Assembly: GCA_016871495.1 (NCBI GenBank) | Contig: VHDF01000033.1 | Span: 1 to 49,544, forward strand | Origin: Verrucomicrobiota bacterium | Lineage (GTDB): Bacteria > Verrucomicrobiota > Verrucomicrobiia > Limisphaerales > VHDF01 | Length of the DNA: 49,544 bases | Reading direction: 5' to 3' | Shown: positions 8,148 through 49,544 of the stretch, piece after piece | How the letters are laid out: the number at the start of each line of letters is the position of its first letter | How positions within the stretch are numbered: position 1 is the stretch's first letter | The notes under the pieces: generated by a model | The model's input: only the letters and a program-made list of their open reading frames with translations | Told to the model about the DNA's origin: nothing | Database searches by the model: none | Position numbers and translations under genes: made by a program

Positions 8148-8425
8148 TGCCAGGTTCAAACCTGCTTGCGGGAAGCTGCTTTGACGTTCCACCGTCCCTG
8201 GATGGGTCGCGGAGTCTGGATCATCTGGCAATCCGGTTCCGGACGGCGACGATACCACCGGTCCACCGGGTCGCCCAAGCCTGTGCATCCGGGAGGGATG
8301 CCAGCGTCGAAGGTGCCCATACCCGGCGTGTGCGGGTTTCAGGTCTGCAGGGCGGATTCTTCATGGGCAAGGGGCGGACCGCTCGTCCCTGAGCTTCCCG
8401 TGTATCCCGAAGTGGTCTTTCGTGT

Positions 8426-8573
8426 GGCGCAGGCTGCCCAGCCTGCCGTATCGCCGACTGCCAGTCGGCCCGGCGGGTGAAGAACGAGGCCCTTCCATGC
8501 GCTCCACGCGCCGGGTTTCCTTCGTCGCCCCGCAGGCTGGGCAGCCTGCGCCACAGCAGACAGGGCTGTCTGC
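8426..8573. repeat. Cluster of four perfect short hairpins within a 21-bp inverted repeat
   Basis: 8426-8446 and 8532-8552 are exact reverse complements, each itself a palindrome (GCAGGCTG, two bases, CAGCCTGC). Between and beside them lie CCGACTG-C-CAGTCGG (8454-8468) and GCAGACAG-GG-CTGTCTGC (8556-8573). This REP-like array occupies the middle of the 1-kb gene-free region. Just upstream, 8398-8410 (CCGTGTATCCCGA) resembles the end of the 134-bp mobile element. The remainder of 8150-8912 shows nothing I recognise. Confidence 0.75.
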
Positions 8574-8912
8574 GTTACAGCGACAACCCGGTCACCGACA
8601 ACCTCTGGAGGCACCGCTGAGCTTCAGGCCTCCTGCCTTCTTGCAGCGAACATCTGCGGAGACGGGAATATGCTTGAGACCACTGCAGCCGATTCCCCCT
8701 ATGCAGGCCGTTGATCATTCGGAGCTGATACTCCCGTGGTGGCTCAAGAGACAACTCGAACGCATTGCATCTCAGGTCATGAGTGCTGGAGATTGGACCT
8801 GCCAGGCGCACTGGCCCCGCTGCGACCCCTTCCGGGGTCGACGACGCTGTCGTGCTCAGGATCCGGGGGTGGGGCTCGTGCCTCACGCCACCCCGGGCCA
8901 GGACGTCTGATC

Positions 8913-10180: not shown

Positions 10181-10247
10181 GGCGGAAGGATGACGTTAGC
10201 TGAGTACCGGACCCGGACAACGAAATTCCGATCCCCCGCGTCCATGG

Positions 10248-10381
10248 CCGTGCATCCCGATGTCGTTGGTAGGGCGGGCCTGTCCCAGCCCGCCGCCCAC
10301 GGGATGCAAAACATCATGCTCCGGCGGCGCGCCGGGACGGACGCGCCCTACCTGCATCACCGGCAACATCGGGATGCGCCG
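10248..10381 (+). mobile_element. 134-bp MITE-like element, copy 1, with 9-bp direct repeats
   Basis: Ends are imperfect inverted repeats: CCGTGCATCCCGATGT at the left and ACATCGGGATGCGCCG at the right (12 bp match exactly, 10252-10263 with 10366-10377). Immediately outside lie identical 9-mers CGTCCATGG at 10239-10247 and 10382-10390, as expected for a target-site duplication. Inside, TAGGGCG (10270) pairs with CGCCCTA (10344), and two GC-rich hairpins stand between. No open reading frame. Copies at 42041 and 49425 are nearly identical. Confidence 0.85.
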
Positions 10382-10484
10382 CGTCCATGGTCGGTGAATG
10401 GGCGGTTGGCCGGACCTCGCCTTTCCCGGCGTGTTCCACGCGCAAGTGAGTCGGCGGCGCTGTTCTCCCGTTGCGGAGTCGATC

Positions 10485-14563: not shown

Positions 14564-17500
14564 GTGACCTTTTTGCGGAATGCCAAGCCTGCGTTGAGTG
14601 GGAGTCGTCGGTTCAAAGCAGGCTCAATCTTTTCAGGACACTCGCCAACGAGAGATCTGCTTGGCTTCGTTCTCGCCGTTCTCCTGAGCTCGGAAGGCTG
14701 CCGGCCCGAACTGCAGTCGGCGGAACCGCGGATTCGTGCACTGCACGTTCCGGTTGCGGGGAAGGAAGGATTTCAGTCGCTCGATCCGATTTCCTTGGGC
14801 GTGAACTTCACCAATCGGCTGAGTCCGGCGCTGTTGGCGAAGAATGCGAACCTCATGAACGGATCCGGCGTGGCCTTGGGCGACGTGGACGGGGATGGCT
14901 GGTGCGACGTGTATTTCTGCAACCTCGAGGGCAAGAACGCCTTGTTCCGAAATCTCGGGAACTGGAGATTCAAGGAGGTGACCCGTGAAGCAGGAATCGA
15001 AATCTCCGGCCAACTCTCGCGCGGCGCGGTCCTGGCGGATGTCGACGGTGATGACGACCTGGACTTGCTGGTGACCTTCAACGCGCAAGGGCTGAAGCTT
15101 TACCTGAATGACGGGCGGGGCCGCTTTGAAGATTCCACCTTTGCCGCGGGGCTCAGTTCAAGAATGGGAAGCACGAGCGTGGCGCTCGGTGACGTCGATG
15201 GTGACGGATTGCTGGATGTGTATTTGTGCAATTTCGGCGAAACCTCGATTCTTCGGGACGGGGGGGGGCGTGCATTACCGTATGGTCGACGGGCGTCCGG
15301 TCCCGGTGGGCCGGTTTGCCAACCGACTGCGTTGGATCGAGGGGAAGCTGGTGGAGTTGGGCGAACCGGACACGCTCTATGAGAATCGCGGCCAGGGCCT
15401 GTTCAAGGCGGTTCCGTGGGGCACACCGAGGTTTCGAAGACGCGATGGCACCGCCCTGGAAGCGCCGTGGGATTTTGGCTTGAGTGTGCAGTTGCGGGAC
15501 TTGAACGGGGACCGCGCTCCCGATTTGTACGTCTGCAATGATTTTCAAACGCCGGATCGCATCTGGATCAACGATGGACGGGGCGCGTTTGTGGAAGCCG
15601 GTCCGGAGGCGTTTCGCCGAGTGCCGTTTGCCTCGATGGGAGTTGATGCCGCGGATATCGACCGCGACGGGCGGCCTGACTTGTACGTGGTGGAAATGCT
15701 GGCCACGGACCCGGTCCGGCGATTGCGCCAGACTCAAGGCGGGAGCCTGAAACCGCCGATGCCGGGGCCGCGACAAGCCATGCTTCAAGTTGCGAGAAAC
15801 ACTTTGTTTTGGAATCGAGGGGATGGAACCTGGGTGGAGATTGCCCATTATGCGGGGTTGGAGGCCTCCGATGGGTCGTGGATGCCTGTTTTTCTGGACG
15901 TGGATCTCGACGGTTACGAGGATATTATGGTGACAAACGGGCACACGCACGACGTGAACGATCGCGACATGGCTGCGAAGCCCAAGGCGGAACGGCCGAA
16001 TGTTTTGTCCTATCCGAGCCTGCAGACTCCGAATTTGGCGTTTCGGAACCAGCGTGACCTTACTTTTCGGACCGCCGGACCGGAGTGGGGGTTTGATTCC
16101 AAGAAACTTTCCCACGGCATGGCCCTGGGCGATTTGGATGGGGATGGAGATTTGGATGTGGTCATCAACTGTTTGAATGACGCCCCCTTGATTTATCGCA
16201 ATGAAACCAGTGAGCCGCGAGTGCACATCCGCTTGAGGGGACGTGGGGGGAACACTCGCGGGGTGGGTGCCAAGGTCACGGTCCGAGCCGAAGAATTGCC
16301 GCCGCAATGGCAGGAGATACTCGCGGGCGGTCGTTACCTGGCTTCCGACGATCCGGCGCGGGTTTTTGCGGCGGGCAAGGCGGGAGCCGCTGTGGAGATC
16401 GCGGTGGCTTGGCGGGGTGGGGGAGAATCGTTGCTCAAGGGGGTGCCGGCAAACAGCGCGGTGGAAATCGATGAACCCGAGACTGCTTCGGAGGGACAAG
16501 CGTCCAGCGCGGGTGAGTCAAGCGCGGCGGGACTCTTCGAGGAACGCCGGATTAACCTGGGGCGGAACACCACGGCGGAGGTTCCATTCAGTGTGGATGG
16601 GAATCCGGGATGGCCTTGGCAAGCGGAGCGGATTTTACCTTCGGTGGGGCTTGTGGATTTGAATCGGGAGGCACCTTTCCGTTTGTGGCATGGCGAGAGC
16701 GGCCCAGGATCAAAGGCCGTTTGGGAGCGGTCAGGATCGGGGGCCTGGCAGCGCGCCTCGGAGAATGCGACCACGGGTCCGTCGAGCGGAACGGAGGTAG
16801 TCGCGATTTTGGAGTGGGCGAGCCAGACCGGCTTGAGTTGGGCCGAAGCCCGGGTGGTGAATTCGGGAACGGATTCACCCCGAACCGAAATTTGGGTGAG
16901 TGAGCATGCGGGGCCGCCCCGCTGGCTGGCTGAGCTCGAAACGCGGCAGGTTCGATTTGCGGTGGGCGATTTTAACCGCGATGGAGTTTTGGATTTGTTT
17001 TGTGGAGCGGGATTTCGCGCGGGGCGTTATCCGCTCTCCGCGCGCTCGAAACTATTTGCAGGCGGGCGGACTGGTGAAGGTTTCGCGACGACCCTTGGGC
17101 CTTGGGAGTGGGACGCGGGTTTAGTTCGCGGCGCGGTTTTTTCGGACCTGGATGGGGACGGGCATGGGGAGTTGGTTTTGGCCACGGAATGGGGGTCACC
17201 GCGAATCTTCGGCTGGAGTGGGAACGGCGTGGTCGAACAAACCTCACGGTGGGGGATCGATCGGTTAACGGGGCTGTGGTCCTGTGTGACGTCGGGAGAT
17301 TTCGATGGCGATGGCCGGATGGATTTGGCGTTTGGGAATTGGGGATTGAATTCAGAGTTGCGGACCCTGCCTGATCGACCCTTGCGATTGGTTCATTTCG
17401 AAACTCCCGCCGGCGGGATGAACTGGGTGGGTGTGGCTTCGTTGCACGCCGAGGGGACCTATCCCTTGTTTTCATTGAAAGAAGCCACGGACGGGGCACT

Positions 17501-18272
17501 GTGGATTTTGGGCAAGTTTCCCACTCATCGAGCTTACGCCGAAGCGGGGTTTGACCGCGTGGTGGCGGCGGAACCGGGGGAGGGCAGAGCATTTCAGGCC
17601 TCCATTCTGTCGAGCCTCGTGCTCCACAATCGGGGGAGTCGATTCGAGGCTCAAGCGCTCCCTCGCGAAGCTCAACGGACTCCGGTAAACGGGCTCTCGG
17701 CGGGAGATTTCGATGGCGACGGCTAGGTCGATTTGGTTTTGGCGCAAAATCATTTCGGCAGGAAACTGGAATCGGATCGCGAGGATGCCGGGCGCGGGTT
17801 GTGGTTGCGGGGAGATGGGAAGGGAGGGTTTAAAACCATGACTTCGACGGAGTCGGGCATGCGCTGGGATGGAGAACAGGCCGGGTTGGCCGCCGGCGAC
17901 TGGGATCGGGACGGACGCCTTGATCTGGCGGTGGCCCAGACTGGAGACGAGGTCGTTTTGTTGCGCAATCGCAGAGGTGCGGCCGGCTTGCGCGTGCGGT
18001 TGGAAGATGGTCCCGGGAATCCCTGGGGAATTGGCGCGAGTGTTCGATGGACCGACACCCTGGGCATGTCGCCCCGCCACGCGGTGCGGGTTGGCCACGG
18101 ATCCGGCGGCCAAGATGCGGCGGCGTTGATTTTAGCCATGCCCGCGGACGGAGGGTCGATGGAGGTGACTTGGCCCGGGGGTGAGCGCACGATGGCGCTG
18201 ATTGAGAAAGGCACGCGGGAAATTCATTTGCGCCGTCCTCCGGGCAAAAAGGAAAGCGGCGGCCCAAAGTAG
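14564..18272 (+). pseudogene. FG-GAP / ASPIC-UnbV (CRTAC-type) protein, disrupted by frameshift and amber codon
   Basis: If restored, about 1236 residues: a hydrophobic leader (about 30-46) ending at a cysteine, FG-GAP repeats with aspartate loops (ALGDVDGDGWCDVYFCN, DVDGDDDLDLLV, DLDGDGDLDVVIN), an ASPIC/UnbV domain (GRGGNTRGVGAKV, AGGRYLASDDPARVF), then a second FG-GAP set and a second ASPIC-like end. GTG 14564 is the first usable start. Lesion 1: a run of nine G at 15260-15268; eight would keep the frame (SILRD-GGG-VHYRMVDG). Lesion 2: TAG at 17724-17726 inside the repeat DFDGDG*VDLVLAQNHFG, with the same frame continuing to 18272; TAC or TAT (Tyr) would suit. Codon use and similarity are unbroken on both sides, so the damage is recent, or the base calls are wrong. 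Confidence 0.8.
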
Positions 18273-26798: not shown

Positions 26799-29591
26799 AT
26801 GGAGTCCAAAATCCGGTCTCAATCCATGGTCATGCAAATGGCGCATTTCTTTCGCACCGCCTCGACCCTGATCCTGTCCGGTGGGTTGGGGGTACTCCTG
26901 GGGCAGATACCCGAGCCCACCGACGCGCCGAAACCCCGTTCTCCCGAGGAAAGTGCCGCGTCGTATCGCATGCCGGAGGGCTTTCGCATGGAGTTGGTGG
27001 CGGCAGAGCCGATCATTGCTTCGCCTTCAGGTGTGGCTTGGGATGAATACGGTCGTTTGTTCGTCACCGAACTCCATGGTTACAATCTCGAGGGCCAGCT
27101 TGACATCGAGGAACTGAACAAGAGCGGGAAGCTCGATACCGTGGTCCGGCGAGTGCAAGCCGAGGAGCGTTTCAAGAAAGCCGCCGACGCGGGCACCTAC
27201 GGGGCTGTCAAGTTGCTTCGCGACACCGATGGCGATGGCCGCATGGACCGGGCCGATCTGTGGTCCACGAATATGCCTCCCGCGTACGGGTTGGTTCCGG
27301 CGCGGGGCGGGGTCATTGTGGCCTGTGCTCCCCACATCCTTTTTCTCGCGGACCCAGATGGTGATGGCCGCGCGGAGGTGCGGGAGATTCTGTTCACGGG
27401 ATTTAAGACCGGGGCGTTGGAACGTGGCATCAACGCTCCTCAATGGGGATTGGACGGATGGATTTACTTCGGACGCGGCGCGGGCGGGGGACGCATCGTG
27501 GGACCGCGACTGGCCGAGCCCGTGGAGTTGCCAGGGACTGATTTTCGCATTCGAGCCGACGGCACCGCCATCGAGCCGGTCACCGGCGCGACGGGCACTT
27601 TCGGATTCGCGATGACGGAAAGTGGCGACCGTTTTGTGATGTCCACGGTGGATCCGGGGCGTCAGGTCGCGCCTTTGCCATGGAGATACCTGGCGAGGAA
27701 TCGAGAGGCGGCGTTTACGGGTTTGGAGGCGGGCGGTGCGGACCGGCGTGTTTTTCCTCTGGCTCCAGCGCATCCTTGGAGGACCAAGCGCGCCGGGGAT
27801 GCCGCTTACTTCAAGTTCTACCGAGACCGGTATGGTCCTTCCGACAGTGACGCCGCGGGGTGGTTCACCTCGGCGTGCAGTCCGATGATTTATCAGGACC
27901 GGGCGCTGCCAGGCTTGCACGGCCATTACTTTGTTTGTGAACCCTCGGGAAACTTGATTCATCGGGCGGTGATCGAACCCGACGGAGTGCTTCTCAAACT
28001 TCGGCGTGCCCCGAATGAGGCGGGCGCCGAATTTGCCGCTTCGAACGATTCCTGGAGTCATCCCATGAACCTGGCCCATGGACCGGACGGGTGTCTTTGG
28101 GTGGTGGATTATTATCGCGAGATTATCGAGGATTACTCGGCGATTCCCCGGCATTTGCAACAGCAATACGGACTGTACGCGGGACATGATCGGGGGCGGA
28201 TATACCGGGTGACTCATCGAGACATGCCCCGGCCCGATCCCGCCGACATGAGTCGACTGGATCTCCCGGCCTTGGCCAGAGAACTGGGCAGTCCTTCGTT
28301 TTGGCGGCGTGGCACGGCGCAACGTCTCCTGGCCGAGCACGGTCGCGGCGGTCCGGAAGAGCCCGTCACGATCCTGCGACGGTTGTTGAAAGACCCGCGT
28401 TCGACGTCGGTCACCATCATTGCCGCCCTGCGCACGCTTGAGATGTGGGGCAAACTTGGCGAATCCGACCTGATCGAGGGGATGTCGCATCCCTCCGAGC
28501 CCGTTCGAGTACACGCCTTGGAACTCGCCGAAAGCGGGTTGAGATCGATGGTGGACGCTCAGCTTCTGAAGGCGGTCCTGGCGTCCGCAGCCGTCGAACG
28601 GAGTCCGCGCGTGTGTATTCAATTGGCGTTGACACTTGGGGAGTCCAGAAGGGCGGAGGTGGTGCCCGCGCTGGCGGCGCTCTTGCGAAAGCACGGTTCC
28701 GTTCGCTGGATCGAGGCAGCGGTGTTGTCTTCGTTATCCGGGCGCGCCCTGGAAATGATGGTGGAATGGGTGAAAGACCCTTTGTCGCCCGCTGGATTTC
28801 TGACCCCTCTGGCGCAGTCCTTGGCGGCTCGCCGCAACGACGGAGAACTGGAGCAAGCCCTGTTGACCTTGCGCCAGGCGCCACCCGCCATGCAAGCGGC
28901 GGCCTTGAAGGGATTGGCCCAAGGCCGGAAGAACGCGCCGCGCCGTCCCACCACTTTGGTGATGGCACGAAATCAATCCGCGCCCTTCCTCTCAAGCGAT
29001 TCCGAGGAGGTCAGGACGGCGGTTCGCGAATTGGAGGAAATCCTGCGTCCGGAAAGCTGGCGAGCCGCAGCGCATGGGCCCGGGCCTGGGTCTGGGGCAT
29101 TGGAGAAGATTTCGGAGGATCGCTTTCGCCAATTCACCGGTGCGTTGCAGGGTGCGCGCGACTTGAATCGTGGACGAGAGGTTTTTCGGCAGGCCTGCGC
29201 AACGTGCCATCGCGTGGGCGAGGAAGGCCACGAGGTGGGGCCGGACTTGTTGGGCCAGTCGGCCATGGCGGAAGAGAGTCTGCTCAAGGAGATCCTCCTG
29301 CCGAGCGAGCGAATTCGGCCCGGCTACGAAACCACGGTGCTGGAGTTGAGAGAGTCATCCGCCCTCACGGGAATTTTGAAGGAAGAAGGCGCGACCAGCC
29401 TGACGTTGGTCCTGCCGAATGGAGTCGAGCAGACGATCCTGCGAAAGGAGATCCGTTCCGTGATGATTTCAGCCGGTTCGCTGATGCCTTCCTTTGCGGA
29501 GACCCTCGCGCCGTCCGATGCCGCCCATCTTCTGGCGTGGTTGAAACAGCAGAAACCGAGCGGGACTCCGGATGCAACGCCGCGGCAGTGA
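26799..29591 (+). CDS. PVC-type membrane-bound dehydrogenase-like protein with heme-binding CxxCH domain
   Basis: 930 residues. Seen: hydrophobic leader (FFRTASTLILSGGLGVLLG), a beta-propeller region about 45-470 (MPEGFRMELVAAEPIIASP, VAWDEYGRLFVTELHGY, LLRDTDGDGRMDRADLW, LAHGPDGCLWVVDYYREIIE), a helical HEAT-like region about 480-760, and a C-terminal cytochrome-c module with CATCH at residues 800-804 and LPSERIRPGYETTVLEL, as in proteins defined from planctomycetes and verrucomicrobia. Likely periplasmic and electron-carrying; the substrate is unknown. Several in-frame starts exist (26799, 26826, 26832); 26799 leaves a full leader. It follows the dehydrogenase by 65 bp and may belong to the same transcript. 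Confidence 0.88.
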   Translation: MESKIRSQSMVMQMAHFFRTASTLILSGGLGVLLGQIPEPTDAPKPRSPEESAASYRMPEGFRMELVAAEPIIASPSGVAWDEYGRLFVTELHGYNLEGQLDIEELNKSGKLDTVVRRVQAEERFKKAADAGTYGAVKLLRDTDGDGRMDRADLWSTNMPPAYGLVPARGGVIVACAPHILFLADPDGDGRAEVREILFTGFKTGALERGINAPQWGLDGWIYFGRGAGGGRIVGPRLAEPVELPGTDFRIRADGTAIEPVTGATGTFGFAMTESGDRFVMSTVDPGRQVAPLPWRYLARNREAAFTGLEAGGADRRVFPLAPAHPWRTKRAGDAAYFKFYRDRYGPSDSDAAGWFTSACSPMIYQDRALPGLHGHYFVCEPSGNLIHRAVIEPDGVLLKLRRAPNEAGAEFAASNDSWSHPMNLAHGPDGCLWVVDYYREIIEDYSAIPRHLQQQYGLYAGHDRGRIYRVTHRDMPRPDPADMSRLDLPALARELGSPSFWRRGTAQRLLAEHGRGGPEEPVTILRRLLKDPRSTSVTIIAALRTLEMWGKLGESDLIEGMSHPSEPVRVHALELAESGLRSMVDAQLLKAVLASAAVERSPRVCIQLALTLGESRRAEVVPALAALLRKHGSVRWIEAAVLSSLSGRALEMMVEWVKDPLSPAGFLTPLAQSLAARRNDGELEQALLTLRQAPPAMQAAALKGLAQGRKNAPRRPTTLVMARNQSAPFLSSDSEEVRTAVRELEEILRPESWRAAAHGPGPGSGALEKISEDRFRQFTGALQGARDLNRGREVFRQACATCHRVGEEGHEVGPDLLGQSAMAEESLLKEILLPSERIRPGYETTVLELRESSALTGILKEEGATSLTLVLPNGVEQTILRKEIRSVMISAGSLMPSFAETLAPSDAAHLLAWLKQQKPSGTPDATPRQ

Positions 29592-29655
29592 ACGTCCAAC
29601 TCCGGGCCTCTTCGATCCGATCGGGAGGGTTTCCGGGAACCAGCGGTTGGGGTTC

Positions 29656-31850
29656 ATGAACGTTGGGTGGCGCCTTTTTCTTGTGGGATGGATGTTTTGG
29701 AGTGGGAGCTTGGCGGCCCAGATTTCACGAGAGATCCAAGCAGTTGAATCGATCCCGGACATGCTGGAGCGATTGGCAGACCAGGCCGATCCAGAGCAGC
29801 ATCCATTCTTAAATGAGTTGCGGGTGGAGCGTTACGAGTCGAGCCTCCGCCAGATGAGGCAATCGGGGTTTGAGTATGCGCGAACCCTGGAATCGTGGGC
29901 GGAGGAATTGCTCCGATGCGGACGGGCGGAAGAGGTGGCGGTTCGCTGGGGGGAAGTGGCACGCTTGCGCGTCCAGGGCATGCCGGGCCGGGATGGATCG
30001 AGATCGGTTTCCGGTCCGAGGCTAGCGGAAGCCGTGGCCTGGATGCGTCTGGGTGAACAGGAGAATTGTCTCGCGGGGCACTCGCCTTCCGCTTGCATCC
30101 TGCCCTTCGACGCTGAGGCTGTGCATCGCCGCCGGCGCCCCATGCAGGAGGCGATTCGGATCTTGCAAGTGCAGTTGGAAGCGGACGCCTCGGATCTTTC
30201 CGCCCGCTGGCTGTTGAATCTGGCGTGGATGGCGGCGGGCGGTTATCCGGATCGAGTGCCGCGAAAACATTTGATTCCGCCCGAGGTTTTCCGTTCGTTC
30301 CGGGATGTGCCGGGATTCACGAATCGAGCGGCGGCTTTGGCATTGGACGACGCGAGGCTTTCCGGGAGAGCGGTTGCGGAAGATTTTGACGGGGATGGAG
30401 ACATCGATTTGGTGGTGACTTCGCTCGGAATGCGCCACCCGATAAAGTATTACCGCAACAACGGGGATGGCACTTTCACCGAAAGAGCCAGGGAAGCGGG
30501 GTTGGATCGGGAGTGGGGAGGATTGAATGTTCAGCAAACGGACTACAACAACGACGGTTTGCCGGACCTATTTGTGTTGCGGGGGGGATGGTTCGGAGAG
30601 GATGGCCGGTTGCCGAAGTCATTGCTCAAGAATCTGGGGGGCGGCGTGTTTACGAATGTGACACGTGAGGCGGGGCTGTTGAGTCTGCATCCGACGCAGA
30701 CCGCGGCCTGGGCGGATTTTGATGGGGACGGCTGGCTTGATGTGATGATCGGTCATGAAACGCGGGGCGGGCATGCTCATGCGTGCCAGCTTTTTCGGAA
30801 TCGTGGAGACGGCACGTTCGAGTCGTGTGGAGAAAGTGCAGGGGTGGGAGTGAGTGCCTGGGTCAAAGGCGTGGCCGCGGGCGACTATGACAATGATGGA
30901 AAGCCGGATCTCTATCTGAGCGTGTTGGGCGGGAAGAACGTGCTTTTTCGTAATCGATGCCGTCCCGGCCTGATGCGGTTCGAGGACGCCTCCGAGGCTG
31001 CGGGAGTTCAGGAGCCTTGGCATAGTTTTCCCACCTGGTTTTTCGATTTTGACCAGGATGGGTGGGAGGATTTGTTTGTGGTTATCAGGCGGCGCACGTC
31101 GGTGAAGTGGCGGCGGATTATTTGGGGCTTCCTCATGGAGGCGAGAAACCGCGCTTGTATCGCAACGGAGGCCAGGGCCGATTCCAGGATGTGACCAGGG
31201 CGGCGGGGCTGGACCGTCTGTTGCTGGCCATGGGGGCGAATTGGGGGGACTACGACAACGATGGATGGCCGGATCTTTATCTGGGCACGGGCGAGCCTGA
31301 TTTATCGTCCCTCATGCCGAACCGGCTGTTTCGCAACGGAGGCGGTGGACGGTTCGAGGATGTGACGACTGCGGCGCGAGTGGGGCATTTGCAGAAAGGG
31401 CACGGGGTCGCCTTTGCCGATTTTGATGAAGATGGTGATCTGGACATCTACGCGGTGATGGGCGGTGCCTTTTCGGGGGACACGGCGGCCAATGTATTCT
31501 TCGAAAACCCCGGGGCTGAGGGAGCATGGGTGGAAATCGAACTGCGCGGGATCAGCGCGAATCGTCCCGGGTTGGGTGCGCGATTGCGGTGTCACGTGCA
31601 AGAGGGGCGGGAAACGCGGGTCATTTATCGGACCGTGACGACGGGTGGTTCGTTTGGGGCCTCGCCGTTTCGGCAATGGATTGGCCTGGGCAAAGCAGGG
31701 AAGGTGGATCGGTTGGAGATTGATTGGCCGGGCAGCGGGACGCGACAAGTGGTGCGGGAAGTCCCGGTGAGAAGGCGCATCACGATAACGGAAGGAGACG
31801 GCACGCCGGTGGTGGTGGTCCCCGCCAGGTGGGGAAGGGCTCGCGAATGA
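29656..31850 (+). pseudogene. FG-GAP / ASPIC-UnbV protein with single-base frameshift
   Basis: If joined, about 731 residues: signal peptide (LFLVGWMFWSGSLAAQ), a helical TPR-like region about 30-225, FG-GAP repeats (DFDGDGDIDLVV, DYNNDGLPDLFV, DFDGDGWLDVMI, DYDNDGKPDLYL, DYDNDGWPDLYL) and a final ASPIC/UnbV domain (GISANRPGLGARLR to VREVPVRRRITI). Near 31078 the frame of DFDQDGWEDLFV must move to reach GYQAAHVGEVAADYLGL: one G is missing in TTTGTGGTTATC. The upstream frame runs on to a stop at 31194 and the downstream frame opens at 31062. ATG 29656 is chosen for the signal peptide. The gene lies 64 bp after the heme protein. Either a true mutation or a base-call error; both halves look otherwise intact. 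Confidence 0.8.
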
Positions 31851-41917: not shown

Positions 41918-42040
41918 GGCGTCGAGTGTTGATGTGACGACGCGCCGCTCCGGTTCCCCGGTCCTTACGCGTCTGAGTGTGCTGCGGGGTCAAAGTAGAC
42001 TTGCTCCTGACAACTGGCAAGTTGGGAATCCCCGTGTGCG

Positions 42041-42174
42041 CGGTGCATCCCGATGTTGCCGGTGATGCAGGTAGGGCGCGTCCGTCCCGGCGCGCCGCCG
42101 GAGCATGATGTTTTGCATCCAGTGGGCGGCGGGCTGGGACAGGCCAGCCCTACCAACAACATCGGGATGCACGG
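42041..42174 (-). mobile_element. 134-bp MITE-like element, copy 2, with 9-bp direct repeats
   Basis: Reverse-complement of copy 1 with only a few differences; also exactly 134 bp. Its ends read CGGTGCATCCCGATGTTG and CAACATCGGGATGCACGG. Flanking 9-mers CCGTGTGCG at 42032-42040 and 42175-42183 are identical, and differ from those of copy 1. It lies upstream of moxR. From 42184 to 42960 no gene is seen; a solo motif GCATCGGGATGCC at 42641-42653 resembles the element end. Confidence 0.85.
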
Positions 42175-42768
42175 CCGTGTGCGAGGAGTGGGAACTCGCC
42201 CCACGCCTGACTCGATGAGATCATCTCCTTTGGGTCGCTCGACTTCGGAGGCGCATGCCCCGGATCGAAGGCCCTCCATCCGCCCCATGCAAGCACGCCG
42301 CGTTGAAAAGACGTTGTCCGTGGAGGACGTCATCACTCTACGCGAGACTCCATTTCGCCGCGGCGAGTCTGTCGAATCATCGTCCGCGCATTTTTGGCTG
42401 TCGCTTCATCAAGTTCCCGCCACCCGCTTGTCGGCACTCCGACGGATTACCACCAAGCCATGCGCTCGACACCTTCTTTGCCGTCTTCGCGTCTTTTGCG
42501 TGAGGAACCTCATCTGCCTCGCGCAAAGGTCGCAGAGGACGAACCGTGCCTGGCATGAACATCGCAGGACGACCTTTCCCGGTCCTTCTGCCGATTGCCA
42601 TCGACCAAGTTGACTTGGTGGCTGCGCCACTCTGCCGACCGCATCGGGATGCCAGGTATGGGTCCAGCGTCCAATTGGAACGCATCGCTGGACTGAACTG
42701 TCCGTGATGCGATTTAAGTTCCAGTCTCCTCGACCCAACCACGTCGCCTTGCTCGACCACGCCGGAAA

Positions 42769-42818
42769 AGCGCCAGAGGGCTGGCGCCCTCCAAGACCTG
42801 GCGGATCCTCCACCCGCC
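42769..42818 (+). repeat. Intergenic repeat D, copy 2 (with hairpin)
   Basis: Close match to 2414-2463, including the hairpin GCGCCAG (42770-42776) with CTGGCGC (42781-42787). It is followed by another small inverted repeat (CCTCTACCGGTAGAGG, 42853-42868). Confidence 0.7.
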
Positions 42819-46930: not shown

Positions 46931-46951
46931 GGAAGGTCTTCGAACCTCCCG

Positions 46952-47008
46952 ACTGACTTGATGCTGAAGTTACTCGCCGTTCCGCACCCCGGCCCGGCGG
47001 AGTTCTTT
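46952..47008 (+). repeat. Intergenic repeat B, copy 2
   Basis: Same orientation and near-identical to 2313-2369. It starts 22 bp after the stop of the membrane protein gene. Confidence 0.75.
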
Positions 47009-47017
47009 TGTTTAACC

Positions 47018-49424: not shown

Positions 49425-49544
49425 CCGTGTATCCCGATGTTGTTGGTAGGGCGGGCCTGTCCCAGCCCGCCGCCCACGGGATGCAAAACATCATGCTCCG
49501 GCGGCGCGCCGGGACGGACGCGCCCTACCTGCATCACCGGCAAC
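49425..49544 (+). mobile_element. 134-bp MITE-like element, copy 3, cut by window end
   Basis: 120 bp of the same element as copies 1 and 2, differing from copy 1 at only about two positions; begins CCGTGTATCCCGATGTTG. The right end and its flanking 9-mer lie outside the window. The left flank is CAGGCCTGC. Confidence 0.8.

Follow-up and report, generated by a model that had tools for sequence, protein, structure and literature searches.

The 134-bp repeat of this window is, judged by its sequence features, a MITE: it is short and gene-less, has TIRs and target duplications, and shares its ends with an autonomous element found elsewhere. We conclude that it very probably has DruA-ISKra4-type ends and would be moved in trans by an ISKra4-family transposase with end-recognising targeting. 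The element is a new family, and its insertion habit is uncommon. The window is the whole of contig C33 (49,544 bp), from a draft genome of 5.06 Mb in 201 contigs. Its coordinates are collected in Table 1. The contig breaks inside copy 3 at the window end, so the genome assembly breaks in the repeat at least once, and the repeat probably limits the assembly.

Table 1. Positions of the MITE copies and their target duplications in the window.
Feature	Position	Strand	Basis
Left 9-bp target duplication CTGAGCTTC, older MITE	8389..8397	.	
Older related 219-bp MITE, family E2, ends CCGTGTATCCCGAAGTGG / CGGTGCCTCCAGAGGTTG, same end class	8398..8616	+	
Right 9-bp target duplication CTGAGCTTC, older MITE	8617..8625	.	
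Left 9-bp target duplication CGTCCATGG, copy 1	10239..10247	.	sequence
134-bp MITE copy 1, TIRs 10248-10265 and 10364-10381	10248..10381	+	
Core of copy 1, two inverted GTAG-tagged palindromic arms (~10268-10297, ~10323-10352)	10268..10353	+	
Right 9-bp target duplication CGTCCATGG, copy 1	10382..10390	.	sequence
Left 9-bp target duplication CCGTGTGCG, copy 2	42032..42040	.	
134-bp MITE copy 2, inverted vs copy 1	42041..42174	-	
Right 9-bp target duplication CCGTGTGCG, copy 2	42175..42183	.	
134-bp MITE copy 3, first 120/134 bases, contig ends inside	49425..49544	+	

The earlier note had described copies 1 and 2 as equal in length, about 97% identical and each flanked by its own perfect 9-bp repeat, and copy 3 as almost identical to copy 1. 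Its coordinates were right, both repeats are perfect and distinct, and we measured 97.0% identity for copy 2 and 98.3% for copy 3 against copy 1, the latter over the 120 bases before the contig end. The layout of the unit is C(C/G)GTG(C/T)ATCCCGATGTTG...CAACATCGGGATGCAC(C/G)G. The inverted ends are present, although at 18 bp (C(C/G)GTG(C/T)ATCCCGATGTTG) they are slightly longer than had been claimed. No gene lies within the element, and its size is inside the MITE range of 70-300 bp. Its interior holds two inverted arms that start GGTAGGGCG(G/C)G, and each arm looks like a GTAG-tagged palindrome. Two internal GC-rich hairpins had been proposed from the sequence; the two palindromic arms are there, but the best fold on either strand is a single long hairpin (-86 to -90 kcal/mol, z ~ -7). 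Searches of Rfam and of a plasmid collection gave no match to the element.

We then searched the genome for the end 15-mer TGCATCCCGATGTTG, allowing up to two mismatches and using the reversed pattern as a control. The 15-mer was found 194 times in forward and 204 times in reverse orientation, versus 1 and 3 times for the control. Because each element contributes one forward and one reverse end, the genome-wide search that the earlier note had recommended yields about 200 copies, or one per 25 kb. From the stretches around the listed end sites we extracted 88 distinct complete copies. Copies were examined if they lay off the contig edges and had one or both ends exact or nearly so, which biases the sample toward intact copies. 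All were exactly 134 bp long except one of 133 bp. At the exact element boundaries, the 9-bp duplication was perfect in 68 of the 88 copies; 13 more matched at 8/9 positions and 2 at 7/9. Thus, 81/88 copies (92%) have a duplication of at least 8/9, a match that would arise by chance at one site about once in 9,000. None of the 88 copies had a perfect 8-bp repeat at these boundaries, and we conclude that the true duplication length is 9. The duplicated 9-mers showed weak base preferences. Taken together, the end counts relative to the control and the rate of duplication indicate that the repeat is not a chance pattern. Mean pairwise divergence among the 88 copies was 2.3%, the median copy differed from the consensus at one position, and 24 copies were mutually identical. 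The family amplified recently, and the case for a recently mobile MITE is stronger than the note had made it.

The element lands nearly always between genes. We rejoined the flanks of each copy by script and scored the reconstructed empty sites with a simple codon model trained on the window. A coding-like site was obtained for 1 of the 88 copies, versus 277 of 400 random window positions; the latter figure is optimistic because the model was trained on the same window, but the contrast is still very large.

Other repeats were seen in the window. Two families of short, diverged direct repeats (71 nt, 87%; 49 nt, 94%) at 2306-2463, 42770-42818 and 46945-47015 are common to both window halves, and repeated GATTT(C/T)GATGG(C/G)GATGG motifs at 15108-17736 and 29572-31850 are suggestive of FG-GAP/calcium-binding repeat proteins.

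The head-to-head GTAG-tagged palindromes of the core could also be explained if a RAYT tyrosine transposase had spread a REP/BIME-type palindrome, the 9-bp repeats being incidental. Palindrome pairs of similar type that lack these outer ends are indeed abundant in other genomes of the order, and GTAG-tagged REPs have been described for the verrucomicrobium Opitutus terrae and others (PMC3733652). However, the boundaries and the duplications, present in 92% of copies, fall at the outer 18-bp ends and not at the palindromes, and in 250 kb sampled from the MITE's own genome the core is almost confined to the 134-bp unit. Nor would RAYT-type enzymes generally be expected to produce duplications of 9 bp. 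We consider spread by a RAYT enzyme highly improbable.

The ends point to a different enzyme. We compared 320 genomes of the order, none of the same genus or family, and found the end pattern C(C/G)GTG(C/T)ATCCCGA(A/T)GTTG in 31 of them; the carriers with named records are mostly Verrucomicrobia MAGs. In genome G109, two inward-facing ends (CGGTGCATCCCGAAGTTGTGGGTGATG) bracket a 2.2-kb element of two genes, and these ends match the right end of the MITE at 24/27 positions, the best agreement among insertion-sequence ends. One gene codes for a DruA-domain protein (PF14236, 4e-23) and the other for a transposase whose best family is ISKra4 (NF033572, 4e-45); the latter score is under the strict cut-off, so the transposase is a divergent member. 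The same ends recur in related elements (G013, G080, G117, G126 and others), where they lie about 30-110 bp past the transposase stop codon. The G117 element, which is of the same make, also has a perfect 9-bp duplication (GTCCGCAGC), with boundaries equivalent to those of the MITE. The earlier note had thought of an IS4- or IS1-type enzyme, an assignment that finds no support, given that same-ended elements in the order encode an ISKra4-family transposase and DruA.

The link between these ends and the transposase extends across the order. Among the 320 genomes, the end pattern was present in 7 of 9 that have a close DruA-ISKra4 transposase, versus 24 of 311 others (p = 1e-6). The ends accompany DruA-ISKra4 copies, whereas they are absent from distant ISKra4 transposases without DruA. 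The p-MULT4/ISKra4 elements are reported to have inverted repeats of 18-39 bp with a terminal C and duplications of 8-9 bp (PMC3942029), and the MITE fits with ends of ~18-25 bp that start with C and a duplication of 9 bp. At one site the MITE ends carry T and most of the insertion sequences A (CCCGATG vs CCCGAAG), and a recognisable duplication was missing at most full-length insertion sequences examined. In G305, an internal deletion has left a 781-bp version of the two-gene form, with the start of DruA joined to the end of the transposase, and this shows a route by which non-autonomous forms arise. Gene-less elements that combine these ends with 9-bp duplications are also present in relatives, at lengths of 97-492 bp; 24 of them have a duplication of at least 8/9. 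A repeat in G036 (CAACATCCGGATGCTACTGAT), at many contig starts (L069, L080) and ~125-143 bases in, was considered and set aside as a high-copy element ending with unrelated boundaries.

Inside the MITE we found no remnant of an ISKra4 transposase gene, the interior being the palindrome pair. Because only the end sequence is shared, we class the element as a MITE with ISKra4-type ends and not as an ISKra4 copy. A protein search of its own incomplete assembly found no ISKra4 transposase, a first scan of named genome contigs with a paired-end pattern found nothing, and the end-pattern and protein searches together found no full-length element or unpaired end of this class in that assembly. The full-length insertion sequence that the earlier note had suggested looking for therefore exists in other genomes of the order but was not found in the MITE's own assembly. 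A draft genome can miss a multi-copy element, so absence of a resident DruA-ISKra4 source is not proven; the source copy would be either absent from the assembly or lost. With no such transposase in the assembly, it is the similarity to ends in other families of the order that leads us to infer an ISKra4-type transposase as the probable mover.

We also considered an IS4/Tn5-like (IS50-type) transposase as the mover, because such enzymes too can leave 9-bp duplications. In the genome of the MITE, one gene (C15:2404-4605) fuses DruA to an IS4/Tn5-like transposase in a protein of 734 aa and is flanked by MITE-end-like sequences, and a 9-bp duplication accompanies a related fusion in G138. The flanking sequences, however, are the halves of an older ~215-bp MITE that encloses the gene, the ends of DruA-IS4 fusions elsewhere are different (for example CTGATCGTGTCCCACATCTT and CTGTGCATTACCCACATCTT), and the fusion stops before the C-terminus of the family model (353/405 positions). 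This fusion is the one IS4/Tn5-like transposase found in the genome, and its ends are unlike those of the MITE. This enzyme type is thus a very unlikely mover. At the fusion itself (L242:2404-4605, C15), the next frame seems to continue the model match.

The end-like flanks of this gene had prompted the idea that DruA is an end-reader common to ISKra4- and IS4-type elements. We rejected it because an older MITE encloses the gene and fusions elsewhere have unrelated ends. DruA, whose name comes from an anti-phage system, is placed by these results inside both ISKra4- and IS4-type transposons, and it appears to be an accessory of several transposase types. At the start of contig C117 (L243:1-350), a DruA fragment seems to run on into a transposase segment of IS66-like type, identified as IS66 by eye. 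One weak Pfam match ties DruA to the Mom DNA-modification family, and DUF4338 has been called a GNAT-like domain in one paper.

The 134-bp family is the youngest of three MITE waves that followed one another in this genome with one end class. The 219-bp MITE of the window has a perfect duplication and a core formed by a long palindrome (TGTGGCGCAGGCTGCCCAGCCTGC...), and its relatives elsewhere in the genome differ from the window copy by 8-14% in most cases. A third family of ~215 bp is diverged further than the 219-bp family. The end sequence GGTGCCTCCAGAGGTTGTCGGTGA belongs to an older family.

Young copies are often found beside these older ends. In 23 of the 88 copies, an older MITE end, facing away, lies 5-16 bp outside the edge of the young element, whereas 5 older ends were found at 17-290 bp of flank, which amounts to an approximately hundredfold excess near the edge. 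A second scan with longer reference ends and other motifs gave the same picture. The most frequent distance was exactly 9 bp (12 of the 23 cases), such that the duplication of the older element was reused and the order is old element, 9-mer, young element, 9-mer; L013 is an example (GATTTGTCG, GATTTATCG, GATTTTTCG). One end of the 219-bp family, which keeps GTTGTCGGTGA as insertion-sequence ends do, accounts for 11 cases, versus 2 clear cases for the other end (4 at the loosest threshold). Among 48 flanks of MITEs with duplications in relatives, none had an adjacent older end, and the adjacency therefore rests on one genome. Tandem pairs of young elements would escape assembly, so their absence carries no meaning.

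We infer that the adjacency reflects a transposase that recognises end-like target sequences, which is to say end-directed target choice. The main rival, which concerns the targeting alone, is that preferred 9-mer targets are used again without any recognition of older ends. Reuse of the older duplication at a distance of exactly 9 in 12/23 cases speaks for it, but the base preferences of the duplications are weak, reuse of an identical site does not explain the cases at 5, 8, 10, 11, 12 or 16 bp, and the bias to one end of the 219-bp family (11 versus ~2-4) is left over. We regard 9-mer reuse as unlikely. It is possible, although we would stop short of calling it probable, that recognition of end-like targets by the DruA-ISKra4 system makes successive MITE families stack in tandem with a 9-bp duplication in common, so that layered non-coding islands build up and genes are avoided.

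Our model for the element is as follows. The non-autonomous transposon consists of DruA-ISKra4-type ends around an inverted pair of GTAG-tagged palindromes. Acting in trans, a DDE transposase of the ISKra4 family (Mutator-like) would bind the ~25-bp ends and excise or copy the element, which would insert at 9-bp staggered breaks in non-coding DNA, with gap filling giving rise to the 9-bp duplications. The same system would have spread the 219-bp and ~215-bp families earlier. Because the transposase would recognise end-like target sequence, new copies would often come to lie 9 bp beyond an older end, the width of a single staggered cut. An abundant Verrucomicrobiota repeat is thereby linked, through its ends, to a definite transposase type. 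What most deserves to be followed up is the insertion habit: should end-adjacent targeting prove true, it would be a tractable example of small elements nesting without gene destruction.

Among known systems, the DruA-bearing subgroup of the ISKra4 family (p-MULT4, Mutator superfamily) is alike in its near-identical, C-starting TIRs (up to 24/27) and 9-bp duplications, whereas the MITE is gene-less, has a palindromic core and shares ~25 bp per end. NEMIS (Correia), RUP, Nezha and MITEAba12 are also short, gene-less, TIR-bounded, hairpin-forming and intergenic in many copies; the 134-bp MITE differs from them in its ends, its host phylum, its ISKra4-type 9-bp duplication and the frequency with which it inserts next to older relatives. 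GTAG-tagged REP dimers (BIME-like) of Opitutus and others resemble its core of two inverted GC-rich palindromes, but here the pair is cargo within transposon ends, and the unit that moves comprises all 134 bp. Finally, IS30 and IS911 insert beside inverted-repeat-like targets; they are alike in choosing end-like sequences, although their transposase families are unrelated and their duplication lengths differ.
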